Positions 589 to 36,163 of a DNA stretch of 36,534 nucleotides are shown piece after piece. The stretch's first letter is position 1, and each line of letters starts with the position of its first letter. The notes under the pieces were generated by a model. That model did not search any database and had not been told where the DNA came from. It was given only the letters and a program-made list of their open reading frames with translations. This DNA comes from an uncultured Ruminococcus sp. (lineage in GTDB: Bacteria; Bacillota; Clostridia; Oscillospirales; CAG-272): positions 1 to 36,534 of the forward strand of contig CACZZA010000007.1 in assembly GCA_902785485.1 (NCBI GenBank), read 5' to 3'. A program made the translations under genes and the position numbers.

Positions 589-1749
589 ATGATGAAAGTC
601 GTTATCGCTATGGATTCGTTCAAGGGCAGTCTGTCCGCGGTCCAGGCGGGCAACGCCGTCGCGGAGGGGATACGCCGCGTATTCGGAAAAGACGAGTGCG
701 AGATCGTCGTGCGTCCGCTCGCCGACGGAGGCGAGGGCACCGTCGAGGCGTTTTCCATGTGCAGTGAGGTCGAATCGGTCGACGTTCGGGTCCACGGACC
801 GTTGTTTGAAGAGATGACCTCCTCGTACGCGATATTTGAAAGCGACACCGCGTTTATCGAGATGGCGTCCGCTTCGGGACTTACTCTCGTCCCGCAGGAA
901 AAACGCGATCCGCTCGTCACGACGACCTACGGCACGGGCGAGCTTATAATGGACGCCGTTCGCCGCGGGATACGCAAATTCGTAATCGGTATCGGCGGGA
1001 GCGCCACGAACGACGGAGGCGTCGGTATGCTCCAGGCGCTCGGATTTTCGTTCCTTGACGAAAGAGGAGAGGAGATCCCCTTCGGAGCCGCGGGACTTGA
1101 AAAACTCTGCGAGATCTCGGACGACGGAGTTTCTCCCGAACTGCGCGAGTGTTCGTTTGAAGTCGCGTGCGACGTCAAAAATCCGCTCTGCGGAAAGAAC
1201 GGCGCTTCGCGCATATTCGGTCCGCAGAAGGGCGCTGACCCCGAAATGACAGAAAGAATGGACAAAGCGCTCGGACGTTACGCCGTTCTGACGAAGGCCT
1301 TCGCTCCTTCGAGCGACCCCGACGCGGCGGGCGCGGGAGCGGCGGGAGGACTCGGATTTGCGTTCCTCTCATATCTCGGAGGCAAGCTGCGCAACGGCGC
1401 GGAGCTTGTTATCAAGCTGACCGAGCTTGAACGTTACGTCAAGGACGCCGATATAGTCGTGACGGGCGAGGGAAGACTCGATTCGCAGAGCGTGATGGGC
1501 AAGGCTCCGACGACTGCCGGAAGCCTCGCAAAAAAATACGGCGCGAAGGTCATCGCGTTCGCGGGGTGCGTCTCCGACGACGCGCGCAAGTGCAACGCGG
1601 GCGGCATCGACGCCTACTTCCCGATCCTGCGCCGGCCCTGTACGCTCGACGACGCGATGGATATTGAAAACGCCTATACGAATATGAGGTCCGCCTCGGA
1701 GCAGGTGTTCCGTCTCATAGGTCTGTACGAAAAGAAAGAGAGAATCTGA
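589..1749 (+). CDS. Glycerate kinase (glycerate 2-kinase family)
   Basis: A 386-residue cytoplasmic enzyme that phosphorylates glycerate with ATP, feeding it into lower glycolysis. Family landmarks are DSFKGSL near the N-terminus, LADGGEGT around residues 43-50, the glycine-rich GIGGSATNDGG stretch near residue 135, GAGAAGGLGFAF near residue 250 and VTGEGRLD near residue 290. The length matches the glycerate kinase type 1 (GarK/GlxK) family. ATG at 589 is followed directly by a second in-frame ATG at 592; GGGGTG just upstream could serve either. It is the first gene of a four-gene operon: the next gene begins one base after its stop. No glyoxylate or glucarate genes are nearby, so the source of glycerate is not evident. 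Confidence 0.95.
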   Translation: MMKVVIAMDSFKGSLSAVQAGNAVAEGIRRVFGKDECEIVVRPLADGGEGTVEAFSMCSEVESVDVRVHGPLFEEMTSSYAIFESDTAFIEMASASGLTLVPQEKRDPLVTTTYGTGELIMDAVRRGIRKFVIGIGGSATNDGGVGMLQALGFSFLDERGEEIPFGAAGLEKLCEISDDGVSPELRECSFEVACDVKNPLCGKNGASRIFGPQKGADPEMTERMDKALGRYAVLTKAFAPSSDPDAAGAGAAGGLGFAFLSYLGGKLRNGAELVIKLTELERYVKDADIVVTGEGRLDSQSVMGKAPTTAGSLAKKYGAKVIAFAGCVSDDARKCNAGGIDAYFPILRRPCTLDDAMDIENAYTNMRSASEQVFRLIGLYEKKERI

Positions 1750-1750
1750 A

Positions 1751-2308
1751 TTGAACGACGAAATGCTTATAGAGAAAAGAATAAGCGGCGAAAAACGGTT
1801 TGAAGGCAAGATCGTCGATATCGAGTGCGACTCCGCGCTCCTTCCCGACGGCAAGACCGCCTACCGTGAAGTCGTCCGCAAAATACACAACGGAGTGTGC
1901 GTCGTGCCGCTGACCGACGACGGGAACGTCGTCATCGTGCGGCAGTACCGCTATCCTTACGCGGAGATACTCCCCGAGGCGCCCGCCGGGAAGTCCGAAA
2001 AGGGCGAGTCGCCCGAAGAGTGCGCCGTCCGCGAGCTGTCCGAGGAGACCGGCTACACGGCGGAAAAGCTCATTCCGCTCGGCGAGTTCTATCCCTCGCC
2101 CGGTATTATGGACGAAGTCCTCTACCTCTATGCGGCGACGGGACTCACCAAAGGACAGACCCACCCGGACGAAGACGAGTTCGTCGAGGCGTCGCTCGTT
2201 CCTCTTGAAAAAATGGTAGAGCAAATAATGAACGGAGAGATCCGCGACGGCAAGACGCAGACCGCGATCCTCAAAACGTACTTAAAAAAACAAAGAGGCG
2301 AGTTATGA
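1751..2308 (+). CDS. NUDIX hydrolase, ADP-ribose pyrophosphatase type
   Basis: A 185-residue NUDIX enzyme of the ADP-ribose pyrophosphatase (NudF-like) group, which splits ADP-ribose to AMP and ribose 5-phosphate. The NUDIX box is complete (GKSEKGE then RELSEETGY, residues about 77-99). The preceding QYRYPY and downstream FYPSPGIMDE segments are typical of ADP-ribose hydrolases, where the region after the box helps set substrate choice. The start is probably TTG at 1751; the alternative is ATG at 1763. The gene overlaps the next by four bases (ATGA), implying translational coupling with the NAD(P)H-hydrate dehydratase, so both may handle damaged or broken-down nicotinamide nucleotides. The pairing is seen directly; the shared role is inference. 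Confidence 0.9.
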   Translation: MNDEMLIEKRISGEKRFEGKIVDIECDSALLPDGKTAYREVVRKIHNGVCVVPLTDDGNVVIVRQYRYPYAEILPEAPAGKSEKGESPEECAVRELSEETGYTAEKLIPLGEFYPSPGIMDEVLYLYAATGLTKGQTHPDEDEFVEASLVPLEKMVEQIMNGEIRDGKTQTAILKTYLKKQRGEL

Positions 2309-3180
2309 GCGAGCTTTCCGTGACGAGCCTGCTCCGCAAACGCAGGAGCGACGGGAATAAATATGATTTCGGCTATCTGCTCTGCGTATGCGGCAGTTCG
2401 CTTTACCGCGGAGCGTCGGCTCTCGCCGTCAAGTCCGCCCTGCGTTCGGGTGTGGGACTTTGCTGTCTCGCGTCGATCGAAAAAGTCGTCTCGTCCGTTG
2501 CGGCAAAGCTCGACGAATGTACTTTTCTTCCTTTGAGGGAAAGCCCGAACGGCGCGATCTCGTCGGACGGTCTGCAAGCGATACTCGAAAAAAGCCACAG
2601 GGCGACCGCTGTTTTAGCCGGACCGGGTCTTACGCTCGACGACGAGGCGGTAAAGCTGGTCTACGGGATCATCGAGGGCGCGGACGTTCCGCTCGTACTC
2701 GACGCGGACGCGCTGAACGCCGTCAGCATCGACCGCTCCGTTCTGTCAAAACACAAAAAAGGAGCGGTACTGACTCCTCATTTCGGCGAGATGGCGCGGC
2801 TCTGCAAGGCGTCGGTGGCGCAGATCGCGGAGTCACCGGGAAAATACGCTTCGGAGTTCGCATCAAAACACGACTGCGTCGTCGTGCTGAAATCACATAC
2901 GACCTGCATCGCGTCACCGGAAGGCGAGGTCTTTACCTGCGGAAGACCAAATTCCGGACTCGCGAAAGGCGGGAGCGGAGACGTCCTGTCGGGACTTATC
3001 GCCTCGCTGCTCGCGCAGGGGTATCCTCCGCTTGACGCGGCGAGACTCGGAGTTTATATCCACTCCGAGGCGGGCGGAATGCTTTGCGAAAGCCTCGGAG
3101 AAAGGGCGCTCCTGCCGTCAGACCTGCCGGATGTGTTCCCGGAGGTCTTCCGTTCGCTCGAGACCCCGGCGCGGCTCTGA
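2305..3180 (+). CDS. nnrD: ADP-dependent (S)-NAD(P)H-hydrate dehydratase
   Basis: A 291-residue ribokinase-fold enzyme that repairs hydrated NADH/NADPH using ADP or ATP. Diagnostic stretches are AGPGL near residue 108, DADALN near residue 134, LTPHFGEMARL near residue 157 and KGGSGDVLSGL near residue 221, the last carrying the catalytic-base aspartate and anion hole. Many bacteria fuse this domain to an N-terminal NAD(P)HX epimerase (NnrE); here the N-terminus is only about 40 residues before the kinase-like core, so the epimerase must be elsewhere or absent. The start codon lies inside the end of the NUDIX gene (ATGA overlap). Confidence 0.93.
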   Translation: MSELSVTSLLRKRRSDGNKYDFGYLLCVCGSSLYRGASALAVKSALRSGVGLCCLASIEKVVSSVAAKLDECTFLPLRESPNGAISSDGLQAILEKSHRATAVLAGPGLTLDDEAVKLVYGIIEGADVPLVLDADALNAVSIDRSVLSKHKKGAVLTPHFGEMARLCKASVAQIAESPGKYASEFASKHDCVVVLKSHTTCIASPEGEVFTCGRPNSGLAKGGSGDVLSGLIASLLAQGYPPLDAARLGVYIHSEAGGMLCESLGERALLPSDLPDVFPEVFRSLETPARL

Positions 3181-7150: not shown

Positions 7151-9352
7151 ATGAAGAAGTTTTTAGCGCTTCTCCTCGTTGCCGTTATGGTGCTGGCTAT
7201 GCTCGCAGCTTGCGGCGATGAGAAACCGTCAAATGAGACGGAAAAGCCCGGTGAAACCGACAAACCGGGAACTCCCGTCGAAATGACCGATCCGTACGCG
7301 GGCAAGACCCACGCGGAGATTTCCGACGATCTTTACGAGAAGGTCCTCGGCGACTTCGACAAGCTCTATGCACAGGCTAAAGAGGCAAAGAGCATTTCCG
7401 AGAGATTCGCTCTCATGGCTATCGCAGAAGCGAAGCTCCTTGAGTCCGGCGTTATGCTTCCGTCTTCTTCCAAGGGCGGCAACTACGCTATCTCCAAGGT
7501 AGCTCCCTACACCGTTACCCCTGTTCTTTGGGGCAATGACTCCGACAGATTCTACAATGCCATCATCGTTGGCGGCGAGAATGCCATCAAGGCTTCCGAG
7601 AGAGACGAACTGAAGGCTCTCTGGGCTGAGACCAAAGGCACCGGCACCTACCTTGCAAAGGCTAAAGAATACCTCACCGGCAAGGGCTACACCTTCGTTG
7701 ACACCTACGAGCTCGGATACACTTCCGATCCTCAGACTTGGGACGCGCTCAACACCTACAGAGCCGCTGACTCCGAAGCTATCGTCAACACCTACACCGG
7801 TCTGCTTGAGTACAACGTAGAAAATACTCAGGTTCCCGCACTCGCAGAAGCTCTCCCGACCGTCTCCGCTGACGGCCTCACCTACACCTTCAAGATCCGC
7901 AAGAACGTCAACTGGGTCGACTCTCAGGGCAAGGTCCTTGAACCCGTTACCGCTAAATCCTTCGTCGCCGGCATGCATCACATGCTCGACGCACAGGGCG
8001 GACTTGAGTACCTCGTTTCCGGTATCATCAAGAATGCAGATCAGTATATGAGCGGCGAGATCACCGACTTCTCGCAGGTCGGCGTAAAAGCTGTTGACGA
8101 TTATACTCTCGAGTATACTCTCGAAGCTCCCTGCCCCTACTTCCTCACCATGTTCGGTTACAACATCTTCGCTCCTATCAGCGAAGTCCAGTTCCAGGCT
8201 AAGGGCGGCGTATACGGAGTAGAAGAGTTCAAGGAAACAAAAGAGAAAGCTTCTTACACCTACGGTAAGACCCCCGATGACATCGGCTACAACGGAGCTT
8301 ACATCGTAACCTCCAACACTGCTGAAAACTCCATCGTTTTCGAAGCCAACCCCGAGTTCTACGCTCCCGAGCTTCTCAACGTCAAGAAGATCGTCTGGAC
8401 CTTCCTCGACGGTAAGAACCCCACCGCTTCCTATGACTTCTTCAAGGAAGGCAAGTTCGCGGGCGCGGGTCTGAACACTCAGGCTCTCGCGAAGTGCAAA
8501 GAAGACAAACTCTTTGACGATTACGCATACGTTTCTTCCACCGACGCTACCTCGTACCCGATGTTCCTCAACCTTTACAGAGCACAGTACGGCAACTATG
8601 ACGATCCGACCATCGCTCCCACTACTCTCAGCGACACCGATAAGGTCCGCACCAACCTCGCGATGGGCAACCAGATGTTCCGTCTGGCGGTCGTTACCGC
8701 TCTTGACCGCGGCGCGTACAACGCTACGACTCAGGGCGACGAGCTCAAGCTCACCAACCTCGTCAACTCCTACACTCCCGGAACCTTCGTAACTCTTCCC
8801 GAAGACGTTACCGTCAAGATCGGCGACGCTGACAAGAAGTACGAAGCAGGCACGTTTTACGGTCAGATCATGCAGGATCAGATCGTTGCAGACGGATTCT
8901 CCATCAAGGTTTGGGATCCGCAGGCTGACGGCGGCATCGGTTCTTCCGCGGGCTTTGACGGCTGGTACAGCCCCGAAGCTTCCAAGCAGTATCTCGCATC
9001 TGCGGCAGATCAGCTCAAGGAACTCGGCGTCGAGATCTCCAAAGAGAACCCGATCAAACTCGAGCTCCCCTACTACGACATCAACGAGACCTATACTCAG
9101 AGAGCTAACGCTCTGAAACAGTCCATCGAAACTTCCACCGACGGCCAGATCGAGGTCGTTCTCGTTAAGACCGGCGGCTCCAATGCCAAGAACTGGTACA
9201 ACGCAGGTTACTATCCGGAATCCGGCGACGGCATGAACTATAACATTGTCGACGTTTGCGGTTGGGGTCCTGACTTCGGCGATCCTCAGACCTACCTCGA
9301 CACCATGCTCGGCCAGCCCGGCGGTATGGCGAAGAACATTGGCTTGTATTGA
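7151..9352 (+). CDS. Peptide ABC transporter substrate-binding lipoprotein (OppA-like, apparently permuted)
   Basis: A 733-residue lipoprotein: signal peptide with lipobox LAAC (acylated Cys21), then a Glu/Pro/Thr linker to about residue 45. The extracellular part belongs to the SBP_bac_5 (OppA/DppA) family, which delivers oligopeptides to the membrane channel. The family's usual N-terminal part is seen from about residue 185 (GYTSDPQTWDALNTYRAAD, then a tract ending LTYTFKIRKNVNWVD). The usual late segment GWGPDFGDPQTYLDTML lies only about 25 residues from the stop. The segment normally following it (helical ERFALMAIAEAKLLESGVMLP, then VAPYT) is instead at residues 84-121. The order therefore looks circularly permuted. 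Codons favour C-ending forms (TTC, AAC, ACC) more than in neighbours, suggesting high expression. Confidence 0.9.
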   Translation: MKKFLALLLVAVMVLAMLAACGDEKPSNETEKPGETDKPGTPVEMTDPYAGKTHAEISDDLYEKVLGDFDKLYAQAKEAKSISERFALMAIAEAKLLESGVMLPSSSKGGNYAISKVAPYTVTPVLWGNDSDRFYNAIIVGGENAIKASERDELKALWAETKGTGTYLAKAKEYLTGKGYTFVDTYELGYTSDPQTWDALNTYRAADSEAIVNTYTGLLEYNVENTQVPALAEALPTVSADGLTYTFKIRKNVNWVDSQGKVLEPVTAKSFVAGMHHMLDAQGGLEYLVSGIIKNADQYMSGEITDFSQVGVKAVDDYTLEYTLEAPCPYFLTMFGYNIFAPISEVQFQAKGGVYGVEEFKETKEKASYTYGKTPDDIGYNGAYIVTSNTAENSIVFEANPEFYAPELLNVKKIVWTFLDGKNPTASYDFFKEGKFAGAGLNTQALAKCKEDKLFDDYAYVSSTDATSYPMFLNLYRAQYGNYDDPTIAPTTLSDTDKVRTNLAMGNQMFRLAVVTALDRGAYNATTQGDELKLTNLVNSYTPGTFVTLPEDVTVKIGDADKKYEAGTFYGQIMQDQIVADGFSIKVWDPQADGGIGSSAGFDGWYSPEASKQYLASAADQLKELGVEISKENPIKLELPYYDINETYTQRANALKQSIETSTDGQIEVVLVKTGGSNAKNWYNAGYYPESGDGMNYNIVDVCGWGPDFGDPQTYLDTMLGQPGGMAKNIGLY

Positions 9353-12134: not shown

Positions 12135-13886
12135 GTGGAAAACAAAAAAGTAATCTTGTCCGTAAAGGACCTTGAAGTTAAATTTCACGTCAGAGGCAGG
12201 ATCCTGACCGCGATACGCGGCATTTCCCTCGACATATACGAAAACGAATCCATCGCCATTGTCGGCGAGTCCGGTTCCGGAAAATCCGTATTCACCAAGA
12301 CCTTTGCCGGAATGCTTGATTCAAACGGCTTTATCAGCAAAGGAGATATCATTTTCAACGACGACGAGCTCGTCGTGACCGACGTCGTCAATTCAGCGCG
12401 CAACAAGAGGCTCATAGGTTCGATCAACGCAAAGCTCGACGCCAAGGCGGCGGAGGAGCACGCGTCGGGCATCTGGCGCGAGCTCAAGGAGCTCGAGTCG
12501 GAGAACAAGAGGCGTTTTACCCTTACCGACGAAGACGAAAAGGCGTTTGACGAACGTCTGCACGACCTCAACTTTGCAAAAGCCGAGGCGTACAACACCA
12601 AGCTGACGTTAGACTCCTCGAAGGAAAAAGCCGAGATCAAAAAGAAAGAGGCTGAAATAGCCGAGCTGGAAAAGCAGATCAAGGCGATCGAAGGCGAAAA
12701 GAAGGCGAAGATAGCCGAAAGGAAAAAACAGGCTGACTCCGACACAAGTTATATTTCGTCCTTCAATACCAAAAAATCGGAGCTTGAAGCCCGTTATTCC
12801 AAGGAAGTTTCTTCCTATAAGATCACTCCGGAGGTCTCCGAACGTAACAAGGTCATCGCCAAGGAGATCGTCCTTTCGACCGATCACATCGGCGGTATCC
12901 ACGGCGGCAATCTTCGCCGTTCGCTCGTAAAAAGCGTGCTGAAGGCGATGAAGATGGGCGTCGATCTGAATAACGAGAACGAGCGCAACAAGGTGTTCGA
13001 TACCGTCATCTTCCGCGTGCGTTACATCAGTGAGGACGAGAAGTGGCTCCACGGCGAATGTGTCGTCAACCTCGCCAAGATCAACGAGTCCGCGTATTGG
13101 ACTCAGATCCGCGGTAAAAAGATCGCCACGGTCTTCCAGGACCCCATGACCTCTCTCAACCCGATCATCCCGATCGGCAAGCAGATCACCTCGATAATCC
13201 TCAAGCACCAGAAATGCACGGAGGTCGAGGCGAGAGAGCGCGCGCTCGTGCTGATGAAAAAGGTCGGCATCCCGAACGCGGAGAACCGTTACGACGATTA
13301 CCCGTTCCAGTATTCCGGCGGTATGCGTCAGCGTATAGTCATAGCGATCGCGCTTTCGTGCCAGCCTAAGATACTGATCTGCGACGAGCCGACTACCGCT
13401 CTTGACGTTACGATCCAGACGCAGATACTGACCCTGCTGAAGGACCTTCAGAAAGAGTTCAACTATACGATAGTATTCATCACGCACGACCTCGGCGTCG
13501 TCGCCAATATAGCGGACCGCGTTGCGGTGCTTTACGCCGGACAGATCGTCGAGCTCGGCAACGTGGACGAGGTATTCTTCGATCCGCGCCACCCGTACAC
13601 CTGGGCTCTGCTTTCGTCGCTTCCTCAGCTCGCGCAGAGGAACACGAAGCTTTACTCGATCACGGGTACTCCCCCGAGCCTTTATAATACCATCGTGGGA
13701 GATCCCTTCGCGCCGAGAAACCCGTATTGCCTCAAGATAGACACGCTCAAAGAGCCGCCCGTCTTCAAGGTGACGGAGACCCACTTCGCGAAGACCTGGC
13801 TGCTCGATCCGAGGTCCCCGAAGATCGAAAAGCCCGAGGCGATCTGCGACATCCATGAAAAGCTTATGAAAGCGTTCAATATCTGA
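12135..13886 (+). CDS. oppD: Peptide ABC transporter ATPase, OppD-like, with ~235-residue charged insertion
   Basis: A 583-residue ATPase starting at GTG 12135. Walker A is GESGSGKS (44-51), the Q-loop VFQDP (Gln335), the signature YSGGMRQR (393-400), Walker B ILICDEP (413-419) and the switch His451. The C-terminal tail has the family's oligopeptide/dipeptide domain pattern (RHPYTWALL and a PPSL...PFAPR-type segment), but only one Cys (YCLK) in the place where Fe-S-type relatives have several. In ordinary OppD the Q-loop follows Walker A by about 50 residues; here about 235 extra residues intervene. Of these, about 110-225 are Lys/Glu/Ala-rich and heptad-like, a probable coiled coil. Catalytic motifs are intact, so it should be active. 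It pairs with the next gene. Confidence 0.93.
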
Positions 13887-34496: not shown

Positions 34497-34525
34497 ATTA
34501 TATACCATAAAACGCCTTTTTTCAA
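34497..34525 (-). promoter_or_regulatory. Promoter of mscS-family gene
   Basis: Minus strand: TTGAAA (34520-34525), 17 bases, TATAAT (34497-34502). It lies between the hairpin array and the gene, so mscS has its own promoter and does not depend on read-through from the array. Confidence 0.75.
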
Positions 34526-34576: not shown

Positions 34577-34797
34577 ATGATATATCGCCGTACGGCGATG
34601 TGATATACGGATTACCCCCGTATGATATACACTTTACTTCATTACGCGTATGATATGATATCCGTTCCTTCATACGCCCGCAGGCGTATATCATCGCACG
34701 AAGTGCGATATCATACCGGAGGTATATCATCCGTTCCGATCAGGAACGGATATCATTGAAAGAAACCTGATTTGTCTGCCAAATCAGGTTTCTTTTC
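34577..34797. repeat. Hairpin array, copy 1 (ATGATAT/ATATCAT-separated stem-loops plus terminator hairpin)
   Basis: From left to right: palindrome ATCGCCGTACGGCGAT (34584-34599); ACGG/CCGT; a degenerate unit ending ACGCGT; ATACGCC-CGCA-GGCGTAT; CGCAC-GAA-GTGCG; ACC-GGA-GGT; CCGTTCC-GATCA-GGAACGG; and the long hairpin AAAGAAACCTGATTTG (34759-34774) with CAAATCAGGTTTCTTT (34780-34795). Units on the left are separated by ATGATAT or GTGATAT, those on the right by its complement ATATCAT. Bases 34651-34796 are repeated almost exactly at 35941-36085. On the minus strand the long hairpin comes first, downstream of the methyltransferase gene, where it can act as its terminator. Confidence 0.93.
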
Positions 34798-34859
34798 TGT
34801 ATAAGAGCGCCTAAAAAGTACAAATCCAAGCTAAAAGTGCCTAAAAGAACACTACAGAG

Positions 34860-35456
34860 CTATTTCTTTGCCGAGAACAGATAAGCGGCTACTGTTTCCG
34901 TTATGCTTTCAATAGCAAATCCGACATTTTGCAGGTATGTTTTTGTGGTATCCGGGTCATCCGGATATATCTCAACAGTTCTTCCGTTACACTCAATATA
35001 TTTATTTTTGTTTTTATCGATAGATAAAACAAAGACTCCGTTTGGAGTAAGCAACGAATAGATCTTTGCCATCGTATCAACTTTGTTTTTAAAATGCATA
35101 AAAGTCAATGAAGAATAGATCACATCATATTTTTCGGAAAAATCAAAAGTGTTGAAATCACCGTAAATCAATGTAACGTTGTTGAATCTCTTTAAGTTTT
35201 GCTTTGCTTTTTCAACAGTTTTTTCTGATATATCAATTCCAGTAAATGCTCTGCAAAGAGGTGCGGTACGTATTGCCAATCTGCCTGTACCAACGCCTAT
35301 TTCAAGGACCGATTTGCTCACACTTAATCCCAACAAATCAATAAACGCGGCGCCATCCCAACGGTCCATGTATATTTTTAACGGCTCGGGATCAAAAACA
35401 GGATCGTTGTTTTCATCGATCAATGAGTCGTAGTGCGACGAAACGTTATTGATCAT
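34860..35456 (-). CDS. Class I SAM-dependent methyltransferase
   Basis: 198 residues. Motif I is VLEIGVGTGRLAI (about residues 51-63), with the acidic strand-2 end at FTGIDISE (about 77) and a motif II-like YGDFNTFDF (about 99) plus YDVIYSSLTFMHF. This is the small Methyltransf_25/11 type that methylates small molecules, proteins or nucleic acids; the target is not indicated. Start ATG 35456 follows GAAAGGAAT and overlaps the end of the four-helix-bundle gene by 11 bases, so the two are coupled. Base composition is clearly AT-richer than in the flanking mscS and transporter genes, a sign of acquisition. The pair is bracketed by the two hairpin arrays. Confidence 0.93.
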   Translation of the reverse strand: MINNVSSHYDSLIDENNDPVFDPEPLKIYMDRWDGAAFIDLLGLSVSKSVLEIGVGTGRLAIRTAPLCRAFTGIDISEKTVEKAKQNLKRFNNVTLIYGDFNTFDFSEKYDVIYSSLTFMHFKNKVDTMAKIYSLLTPNGVFVLSIDKNKNKYIECNGRTVEIYPDDPDTTKTYLQNVGFAIESITETVAAYLFSAKK

Positions 35457-35808
35457 TTTTTGAGATTCCTTTCGCGGTAGAACATGAGGCGATCAGAAGT
35501 CTGCGAATATTGCCGCATATTTTTTCGGTGCTTTTGTACTGTTCTTCATCGATTCTTCCGGTTTCAAACATCAACTTCAGCCAATAGCTTGTCTCATTTG
35601 ATTCTTTTAAAGCGATTTCGAGTTTAGCAATAAAATCCGCTTTACTGTGTGCATATTGGGCTTCGTGAATGTTAGCGCCGACAGATGTTCCCGCGCGGGC
35701 AAATTGATCTATTATATATGAACTTTTCGGCATTTTTATTCTGTCAGAAAGGTTTACGACAGCTACGGCAAATTCGAAAGATAGATCAAGCAGTTTGTTA
35801 TCGGACAT
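35446..35808 (-). CDS. Four-helix-bundle protein (S23/Avd-like family, TIGR02436 type)
   Basis: 120 residues. The family signature is clear: SSYIIDQFARAGTSVGANIH followed by EAQYAHSKADFIAKLEIALK and ESNETSYWLKLM, in a basic, all-helical protein. Relatives are encoded in intervening sequences of 23S rRNA genes (S23 proteins) and as the accessory variability protein Avd of diversity-generating retroelements, which binds nucleic acid and reverse transcriptase. No reverse transcriptase is present here. AGAGGTAAG precedes the ATG. It is first in a two-gene operon with the methyltransferase and starts about 60 bases from hairpin array copy 2. A role in recognising the array is an attractive but untested inference. 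Confidence 0.92.
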   Translation of the reverse strand: MSDNKLLDLSFEFAVAVVNLSDRIKMPKSSYIIDQFARAGTSVGANIHEAQYAHSKADFIAKLEIALKESNETSYWLKLMFETGRIDEEQYKSTEKICGNIRRLLIASCSTAKGISKNDQ

Positions 35809-35840
35809 TTTTTCTTACCTCTGGAATTATTACTGACCGA

Positions 35841-35869
35841 ATTATACCAGAAAACACGGAAAAAGTCAA
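35841..35869 (-). promoter_or_regulatory. Promoter of four-helix-bundle/methyltransferase operon
   Basis: Minus strand: TTGACT (35864-35869), 17 bases, TATAAT (35841-35846). The first bases of the -35 box are also the outer end of hairpin array copy 2 (ATATCATTGA), so structure or protein on the array could affect transcription. Confidence 0.8.
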
Positions 35870-36085
35870 TGATATACGGCTGCGCCGTATGATATGCCGC
35901 GCTTACGCACGGCATGATATATTGCTCCTTCGTCGCAATATGATATAATATCCGTTCCTTCATACGCCGCAGGCGTATATCATCGCACGAAGTGCGATAT
36001 CATACCGGAGGTATATCACCCGTTCCGATCAGGAACGGATATCATTGAAAGAAACCTGATTTGTCTGCCAAATCAGGTTTCTTTC
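35866..36085. repeat. Hairpin array, copy 2, abutting tRNA-Arg
   Basis: Left half: ACGGC-TGC-GCCGT, ATGCCG/CGGCAT and ATATTGC/GCAATAT, separated by ATGATAT. Right half: as in copy 1 (ATACGCC/GGCGTAT, CGCAC/GTGCG, ACC/GGT, CCGTTCC/GGAACGG), separated by ATATCA(T/C), then the same 16-base-pair hairpin (36048-36063 with 36069-36084). Differences from copy 1 over about 145 bases are one indel in the first stem-loop and two substitutions. The outer ends TCAATGATATACG (35866-35878) and CGGATATCATTGA (36036-36048) are inverted repeats with one mismatch. The long hairpin ends two bases from the tRNA CCA end and so can terminate the tRNA transcript. Confidence 0.93.
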
Positions 36086-36086
36086 A

Positions 36087-36163
36087 TGGCGTTCCCGAGG
36101 TGATTCGAACACCCGACCTACCGCTTAGGAGGCGGTCGCTCTATCCTGCTGAGCTACGGAAAC
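36087..36163 (-). tRNA. tRNA-Arg (anticodon CCU), CCA encoded
   Basis: On the minus strand: acceptor GTTTCCG pairing with CGGGAAC, D arm GCTC...GAGC, anticodon stem ACCGC/GCGGT around loop CTCCTAA (anticodon CCT), and a T arm with TTCGAAT between GGGTG and CACCT. Discriminator G and an encoded CCA end at 36087. All stems fold with only a T-G pair in the acceptor. It reads AGG codons. Confidence 0.97.

Follow-up and report, generated by a model that had tools for sequence, protein, structure and literature searches.

The window analysed here is positions 1 to 36,534 of contig CACZZA010000007.1 (assembly GCA_902785485.1) of an uncultured Ruminococcus sp. On its − strand it contains two near-identical arrays of short hairpins spaced by a heptamer, the first of which follows a tRNA-Arg(CCT) gene and precedes a gene for a 23S rRNA-intervening-sequence protein (IVP). 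Comparison with related loci suggests that such an array is probably one end of a small mobile element, present as folded DNA; the element would be recognised by IVP through its heptamer and would bring genes to the 3' side of tRNA and transfer-messenger RNA (tmRNA) genes.

A preliminary description of this DNA had reported the two arrays, some 145 bases of near-identity between them, and a remaining part in which different hairpins keep the same linker. The arrays are confirmed, and the finding extends beyond that description, which did not include the tRNA anchoring, the IVP gene or the gene-cassette context. Specifically, the common part of the two arrays is 147 nt at 98% identity, a near-identical long hairpin (H0) precedes each array, and the hairpins that differ are H5-H7. 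The separators, previously given as fixed, are ATGATAT and ATATCAT except at one place per array, where GTGATAT/ATATCAC is found. The order on the − strand is tRNA-Arg(CCT), H0, array 1, promoter-like site, IVP gene, methyltransferase gene, H0, array 2, promoter-like site and MscS gene (Table 1).

Fold of the array and its overlap with Gut-1

The full unit contains H0, H1-H4, a centre and H5-H7, arranged as two complementary halves of heptamer-spaced hairpins. The segment L0-H1-L-H2-L-H3-L (L, linker) of each window array corresponds to Rfam Gut-1 (RF01706, filed there as a small RNA; Weinberg 2010, PMC2864571, cited here, like the other papers given by PMC number, from excerpts), with scores of 59.0 and 55.8 bits against a cut-off of 50. 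The earlier statement that no named element has this layout is thus partly incorrect: Gut-1 covers three hairpins, about half of each array, and the unit in the window also has H0, H4, the centre and the inverted second half. The genome of the window has at least 25 Gut-1 matches, at least seven of them over the cut-off (150 of 224 candidates scored). Among 39 genomes of the order, this one included, 23 have matches and 21 have matches over the cut-off (90 candidates scored per genome), with up to 60 per genome among the matches listed. Matches often occur in opposite-strand pairs, since an inverted first half looks much like the second; merging such partners reduced the 138 hits with a locus among the matches listed to 123 arrays, 120 of which have at least 150 nt of upstream DNA.

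Folded as single-stranded DNA, the tRNA-side array with its H0 reaches −68.4 kcal/mol, compared with −29.9 ± 3.4 for shuffled sequences (z −11.3). For covariation, 33 of 64 non-redundant first-half candidates were aligned, the 31 excluded being second halves, solo halves and rows dropped by eye. In these relatives L0 and the 5' arm of H1 form a long helix with the centre, which RNAalifold recovers unaided, and L3 pairs with the linker that comes first in the second half. Within the long helix and the linker pair 96.5% of 604 cells are paired, and two-sided changes number 127, versus 40.4 ± 5.4 in shuffled alignments and 10-23 with slid partners. The same L0/H1 5' arm columns pair alternatively with the H1 3' arm, with 94.2% of that helix paired. 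A three-strand relation is thus maintained, in which one stretch has two mutually exclusive pairings and forms a built-in switch. Covariation of stems and linkers lies above all six slid versions on every measure. On four of the five measures it also exceeds all shuffles, whereas for further pair types, the remaining measure, the observed value is reached by 13 and 63 of 500 shuffles.

These counts, together with the linker permutations given below, bear out the proposal of selection on pairing beside a conserved linker. Tandem slippage is excluded because the stems change on both sides, and the heterogeneous stems with two-sided changes likewise rule out chance and clustered regularly interspaced short palindromic repeats (CRISPR). 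As already recognised, the arrays differ from CRISPR in having no fixed repeat, since only the heptamers are constant and the spacers are hairpins; a scan of six window proteins gave no Cas match.

The core of the long helix contains no G-T wobbles in 264 cells and the core of H1 none in 165. Over all columns there are 11 in 373 cells of the long helix, 1 in 208 of H1 and 3 in 231 of the linker pair; for comparison, tRNAs from the loci analysed have 53 in 931 cells of acceptor stems and 71 in 665 of T stems. The array is placed between the terminator-like hairpin H0 and a promoter-like site. Because of the wobble-free core and this placement, the array appears to act as DNA rather than RNA, and the sequences point to pairing maintained at the DNA level. 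A strand-from-strand copying mechanism would also give a wobble-free core. Among the three roles guessed in the preliminary description, the best fits are an end of the recombination type and an array that binds protein; a folded RNA is the poorest.

Heptamer linkers and the IVP protein

Linkers are near-uniform inside each array and complementary between its halves, which none of 2000 permutations reaches in the 47 of 123 arrays where both halves were readable by automatic parse; with one row per dialect pair, complementarity is reached by 1 of 5000 permutations. The heptamer dialects include GTGAAAT, ATGATAT, GTGATAT, GTTATAT, GTGATGT, GTGAAGT and ATGAAAT. The uniformity within an array suggests that a protein reads the heptamers, since ladder pairing alone would allow rung-by-rung drift.

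The candidate reader is IVP. The window protein matches PF05635 (E 5.7e-25) and PDB 2rld_A (E 1.9e-26). The 39 genomes contain 64 IVP hits, distributed over 21 genomes; 18 genomes have both Gut-1 and IVP, five Gut-1 only, three IVP only and 13 neither. By automatic tests, 35 of 62 evaluable IVP genes are accompanied by a hairpin array and 21 by plain tandem heptamers, 56 in all. By eye, four of the remaining six loci have degenerate hairpin-heptamer stretches (L026, L322, L412, L426), one has short heptads (L326) and one has nothing (L407). Lag 7 stands out beside IVP genes, lags 5, 6, 8 and 9 giving 1, 1, 0 and 0 of 62. The heptad test excluded the IVP-like hits at L457-L459, which fall below the cut-off, and phylum hits were used only where a locus existed. 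Control open reading frames (ORFs) from loci of the window's own genome have heptads in 2 of 184 and array-like stretches in 12 of 184; those from viral stretches, which had been chosen by linker pattern, have heptads in 22 of 750 (lag 9, 22; lag 6, 14) and array-like stretches in 64.

Read by eye, several plain-type loci consist of a hairpin, heptads, a copy of the hairpin 3' arm, complementary heptads and then IVP, with no array hairpins; one example, L415, folds at z −10.2. These loci gave rise to the idea, which we considered, that the centre copy may be a target-site duplication or a guide.

The type of repeat follows IVP relatedness. On a tree of 52 of the 64 IVP hits (hits with stops, too short or flavourless were omitted, and flavour was set by eye), the plain and hairpin flavours change two times, versus a shuffled mean of 15.1, with 0 of 500 shuffles reaching this. 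Dialect classes, assigned by eye after the tree was seen, show 12 changes for 12 classes, and 300 shuffles all give at least 22. The question was repeated with automatic motifs for 31 readable IVPs: motif distance drops as IVP identity rises (Mantel r −0.34, 0/5000), and the nearest IVP from another genome has the same motif in 24 of 31, versus 5.3 expected. The closest relatives of the window IVP (genomes G014 and G038) also use ATGATAT. Array parts swap between elements, which argues for more than hitch-hiking in the heptamer-IVP match.

The association extends beyond the order. In a phylum sample, 17 of 25 IVP loci have heptads by the test, and Rfam-confirmed IVP insertions lie inside 23S rRNA at five loci and inside RNase P RNA at two. 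Ten plasmid or phage stretches were taken from 27 records with a match; nine qualify, these being from Bacteroidota, Cyanobacteriota, Spirochaetota and two faecal phages, and a Monoglobus plasmid fails the heptad test (20/28). A Nostoc plasmid has heptads TAATTCG before the IVP gene and their complement after it.

Several further neighbourhoods were also observed. On an Anabaena plasmid (L466 412-2028) cas2 and cas1 flank an IVP gene that has heptads both before and after it. The IVP gene lies in a defence operon in Monoglobus (L465 1-3318), between restriction subunit S and HsdR genes, and in Planktothrix (L464 1-2157), between drmD and the gene of an MmeI-type enzyme. At L457-L459, weak PF05635 matches, with short repeats before the Avd-like gene, stand directly 3' of what by eye is an apparent variable region of a diversity-generating retroelement (DGR).

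tRNA anchoring, junctions and cargo

Among the matches listed, 34 of 120 arrays begin 29-81 nt after the 3' end of a tRNA or tmRNA gene, covering 14 tRNA isotypes and tmRNA. In a separate count, the distance from the tRNA 3' end is 34-70 nt for first halves, with one at 128 nt, and 122-160 nt for second halves. Several arrays away from tRNAs lie directly 3' of protein genes, where H0 is not a terminator, and gene-less copies are included.

In the window's own genome, arrays at tRNA-Gln and tRNA-Arg are alike from L0 to H7 up to the contig end (171 nt, 95%) and differ in H0. Two other arrays of this genome have H4-H7 and the promoter leader in common and are followed by different genes; across two genera, the H4-H7-linked leader stands ahead of four different genes (two of the genes named only by eye). 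The same array with a DUF3885 gene is found after tRNA-Val in G016 (family f1) and after tRNA-Ala in G034 (family f12). These two align over 581 nt at 89%, with near-identical promoter and gene; identity starts at L0, and H0 and H5-H6 differ. At its right end the G016 element repeats its left junction directly, with a further H0 followed by part of L0-H1, and this H0 nearly equals the H0 at G034.

Repeats of an array's own core occur downstream in 6 of 34 cases, where the downstream stretch stops at the contig end in several of the 34, and upstream or in a reversed control in 0 of 34 each. In a comparison of 870 kb of loci, which had been selected by the Gut-1 model, 87 of 92 between-genome matches (at least 85% identity and 100 nt) fall in array windows, which make up 4.3% of the DNA; 41 matches are between families.

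A hand-picked survey of 20 genes downstream of arrays found three methyltransferases, two helix-turn-helix proteins, a GNAT protein, a histidine phosphatase, an S51 peptidase, a nucleoside phosphorylase, DUF3885, MscS, IVP, one SecY match below cut-off and seven genes without a family. Both cargo types of the window recur: a methyltransferase with similar N-terminal sequence (compared by eye) lies 3' of an array at L042, and an MscS gene at L174.

Copies of the tRNA 3' end (~19-29 nt) were found downstream and are clear only at four tRNAs (Table 1), and the idea that such a copy is the general right end of the element was dropped. At the tRNA-Gly locus the copies occur as two gene-less tandem units of ~410 bp with further scars, resembling att sites.

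Other observations concern the spread and the partial forms of the arrays. Among 120 matches listed of linker-pattern stretches in GTDB, at least 65 are true arrays by the stem test. A phage-borne origin was rejected, as only 5 of 92 viral stretches with the linker pattern hold true arrays by this test; one of these adjoins an IVP gene and one an IVP remnant recognised by eye. True arrays on contigs L096, L099 and L170, binned as Akkermansia/Akkermansiaceae, reflect either wide transfer or mis-binning. Solo first halves with no second half end in or near TTAAGGA (L082, L340, L343, L369). A conserved 60-nt stretch 3' of the array in several genomes and families (L090 7788-7848, L076 8107-8168, L386, L038, L081) may be part of the element or the remnant of a gene.

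Within the window, the terminator scan did not call the first-copy H0. The promoter scan gave 6 sites versus 5.2 in shuffles, and the promoter-like sites are a consensus match only. No rRNA was matched by Rfam in the window, and the IVP element lies 3' of tRNA-Arg, not inside a 23S rRNA gene. The centre was located through alignment columns 106-117, the aligned row being the other array copy of the window.

Table 1. Coordinates of the window features and of features at related loci
Feature	Position	Strand	Basis or remark
tRNA-Arg (CCT), anchor gene	36087..36163	-	ARAGORN; Rfam RF00005, 63.4 bits
H0, first copy, 18-bp terminator-like hairpin directly 3' of tRNA-Arg	36046..36086	-	inverted repeat, 100% over 18 nt
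tRNA-side array, L0-H1-H2-H3-H4-centre-H5-H6-H7	35869..36047	-	ATGATAT / ATATCAT linkers
Gut-1 match in tRNA-side array	35972-36047	-	
Centre, second copy of H1 3' arm	35947..35963	-	can pair with L0 + H1 5' arm
Promoter-like TTGACT-17-TATAAT	35841..35869	-	11/12 consensus matches; starts at last linker, reads into IVP gene
IVP gene, four-helix bundle, 120 aa	35446..35808	-	
Cargo gene, S-adenosylmethionine-dependent methyltransferase, 198 aa	34860..35456	-	PF13847, E 3.6e-20
H0, second copy, ahead of second array	34757..34795	-	inverted repeat
Second array, L0-H4-centre as in first, H5-H7 different	34577..34758	-	
Gut-1 match in second array	34683-34758	-	
Promoter-like TTGAAA-17-TATAAT, 3' of second array	34497..34525	-	consensus match only
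Likely second cargo gene, mechanosensitive channel of MscS type, 297 aa	33553..34446	-	PF00924, E 2.3e-13
tRNA 3'-end copies, tRNA-Gly (L093)	7700-8700		
tRNA 3'-end copies, tRNA-Tyr (L332)	1040-1260		
tRNA 3'-end copies, tRNA-Thr (L058)	2530-2800		
tRNA 3'-end copies, tRNA-Cys (L061)	12990-13340		
IVP gene + heptamer repeats inside RNase P RNA gene (L448)	1229-2003		
IVP gene + heptamer repeats inside RNase P RNA gene (L450)	1229-2003		

Interpretation and comparison with known systems

In the mobile-element reading, IVP would bind the heptamers in single-stranded, cruciform or duplex form. A strand-transfer enzyme supplied in trans, probably a host or resident one, would use the extruded array as its substrate and recombine or insert it. 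Genes behind the array promoter would move as cassettes, arrays with no IVP gene would be derivatives, and the intervening sequences (IVSs) of 23S rRNA and the RNase P RNA insertions would be relatives with plain tandem heptamers.

Several results weigh against this reading. Among the matches listed, 86 of 120 arrays are not near a tRNA, and many of the source sequences are metagenome-assembled contigs. No strand-transfer enzyme was identified by a coarse search for motifs between −4 and +6 kb of the arrays; it gave one Xer-like gene, one ORF with a motif like that of serine recombinases and ~30 loose reverse-transcriptase-motif matches taken as unspecific. The integron integrase IntI (TIGR02249) is over its cut-off in 0 of 39 genomes, the window's own included, and reverse transcriptase is found in 7 of 23 Gut-1-positive and 6 of 16 Gut-1-negative genomes. 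An empty site was not shown in the genus searched, which comprised one genome. The specificity of the IVP association also has limits: 8 of 25 phylum IVP genes show no heptads by the test, non-IVP ORFs in IVP loci have an array-like stretch upstream in 20 of 125 and heptads in 28 of 192, and the automatic three-copy arm test is positive in 20 of 62 IVP loci but also in 11 of 130 control ORFs. The heptamer-IVP association can partly be joint inheritance of whole elements. A cognate IVP acting in trans found no support, as IVP-less arrays match the heptamer of an IVP of their genome in 40 of 90, with a permuted mean of 41.9.

Integrons have folded-DNA attC sites that flank small gene cassettes in tandem. 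The arrays resemble them in their folded-DNA-type sites, in the recurrence of one array beside unrelated small genes and in tandem cassettes, and differ in that no integron platform was seen, and in the eight hairpins with uniform heptamers, the tRNA anchoring and the promoter-like site of their own. The counterpart core of attC is GTTRRRY, which the linkers ATGATAT, GTGAAAT and GTGATGT do not fit by reading; the attC core itself is described as RYYYAAC (PMC8632094). An integron proper is rejected for the lack of IntI over cut-off in the 39 genomes. A looser version, in which the arrays are attC-like folded single-stranded sites for a trans-acting tyrosine recombinase (e.g. host Xer) and IVP is one frequent cargo, is unlikely. 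It would account for the cassette behaviour, the folded DNA, the cargo of methyltransferases, GNAT, phosphatase and unknowns, the direct-repeat core at both ends in L039 and the tRNA 3'-end copies at a few sites, but besides the missing IntI it leaves unexplained the heptamer-IVP relatedness and the plain heptamers beside IVP genes in other phyla.

We also consider it improbable that Gut-1 is, as Rfam files it, a small structured RNA from intergenic DNA with incidental tRNA and IVP neighbours. Half of the array does match RF01706, and its bistable pairing is as in regulatory RNAs. Against this, the core is free of wobbles, compared with ~6% in acceptor stems of tRNAs from the same loci, the array has a terminator-like hairpin on one side and a promoter-like site on the other, and the heptamers follow IVP relatedness. 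The evidence favours DNA, and the excerpts of PMC2864571 do not mention for Gut-1 the neighbours and the partner protein of the arrays.

Low probability likewise attaches to multi-palindrome repeats akin to repetitive extragenic palindromes and bacterial interspersed mosaic elements, spread by an unknown transposase and binding nucleoid proteins or stopping transcription, with IVP hitch-hiking. Gene-less copies 3' of gene ends and up to 60 matches per genome (among the matches listed) are consistent with such repeats; promoters and genes brought by some elements, and the heptamer-IVP match, are not.

DGRs have a DNA hairpin or cruciform ahead of avd. Retro-mobility, with IVP partnering a reverse transcriptase as Avd does and the arrays copied via RNA, is very improbable. 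DGR Avd resembles PF05635 (PMC10053308), but the window's own genome (94% complete assembly) has no PF00078 reverse transcriptase match, G000, G011, G014, G022, G026 and G034 each have 24-60 Gut-1 matches (among the matches listed) and no PF00078, and the core has no wobble pairs. A retroelement is rejected, as the presence of reverse transcriptase is unlinked to arrays.

The mobile-element reading finds other parallels. Tycheposons and other tRNA-targeting elements land at the tRNA 3' side and bring cargo, as proposed here, but in our case no integrase was seen in the element, the units are small and they have a hairpin array. The IVS of Coxiella carries inverted repeats at its termini and heptamers in tandem ahead of its S23p ORF; its functionality and origin are called unclear (PMC4990558). 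The arrays are like this IVS in the IVP gene, the self-complementary ends and the heptameric repeats before the ORF (PMC4990558), and unlike it in lying 3' of tRNA/tmRNA or other genes, in the hairpins between heptamers and in the other genes that travel along. Tandem intergenic heptamers are also described in Beggiatoaceae (TAACTGA; PMC4679880), where a repeat-binding protein is considered a possible mobile element, and in Nostoc/Xanthomonas (PMC4692102). The excerpts of these two papers name no partner protein, whereas IVP is proposed here as partner from co-variation. A general IVP-heptamer link was not found stated in the literature covered, preprints and subscription journals being outside this coverage.

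More broadly, and with less confidence than for the mobile-element reading of the arrays, we suggest a possible generalisation. IVP proteins (PF05635) may be the sequence-specific partners of bacterial heptamer repeats, the two together, a heptamer code and the protein that reads it, forming a widespread class of minimal mobile elements that land in or behind structured RNA genes (tRNA, tmRNA, 23S rRNA, RNase P RNA). In gut Clostridia such an element may take the form of a DNA fold with a three-strand switch that moves cassettes, the Gut-1 'RNA' being half of this fold.

Many bacterial genomes are enriched in heptameric repeats, which had been given no detailed study (PMC4692102, 2015). IVP/S23p proteins and the 23S rRNA IVSs have been known for decades with no agreed function (PMC4990558), and co-variation now ties them to heptamer repeats. 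This link makes both testable: the heptamer could be predicted from the protein and binding then measured. Gut-1, an orphan Rfam RNA, is likely a DNA element, and the arrays mark an apparent route at tRNA loci for the passage of small genes from one family of gut bacteria to another. If true, this reading would give a role to the IVP protein family and to seven-letter repeats of unclear function.

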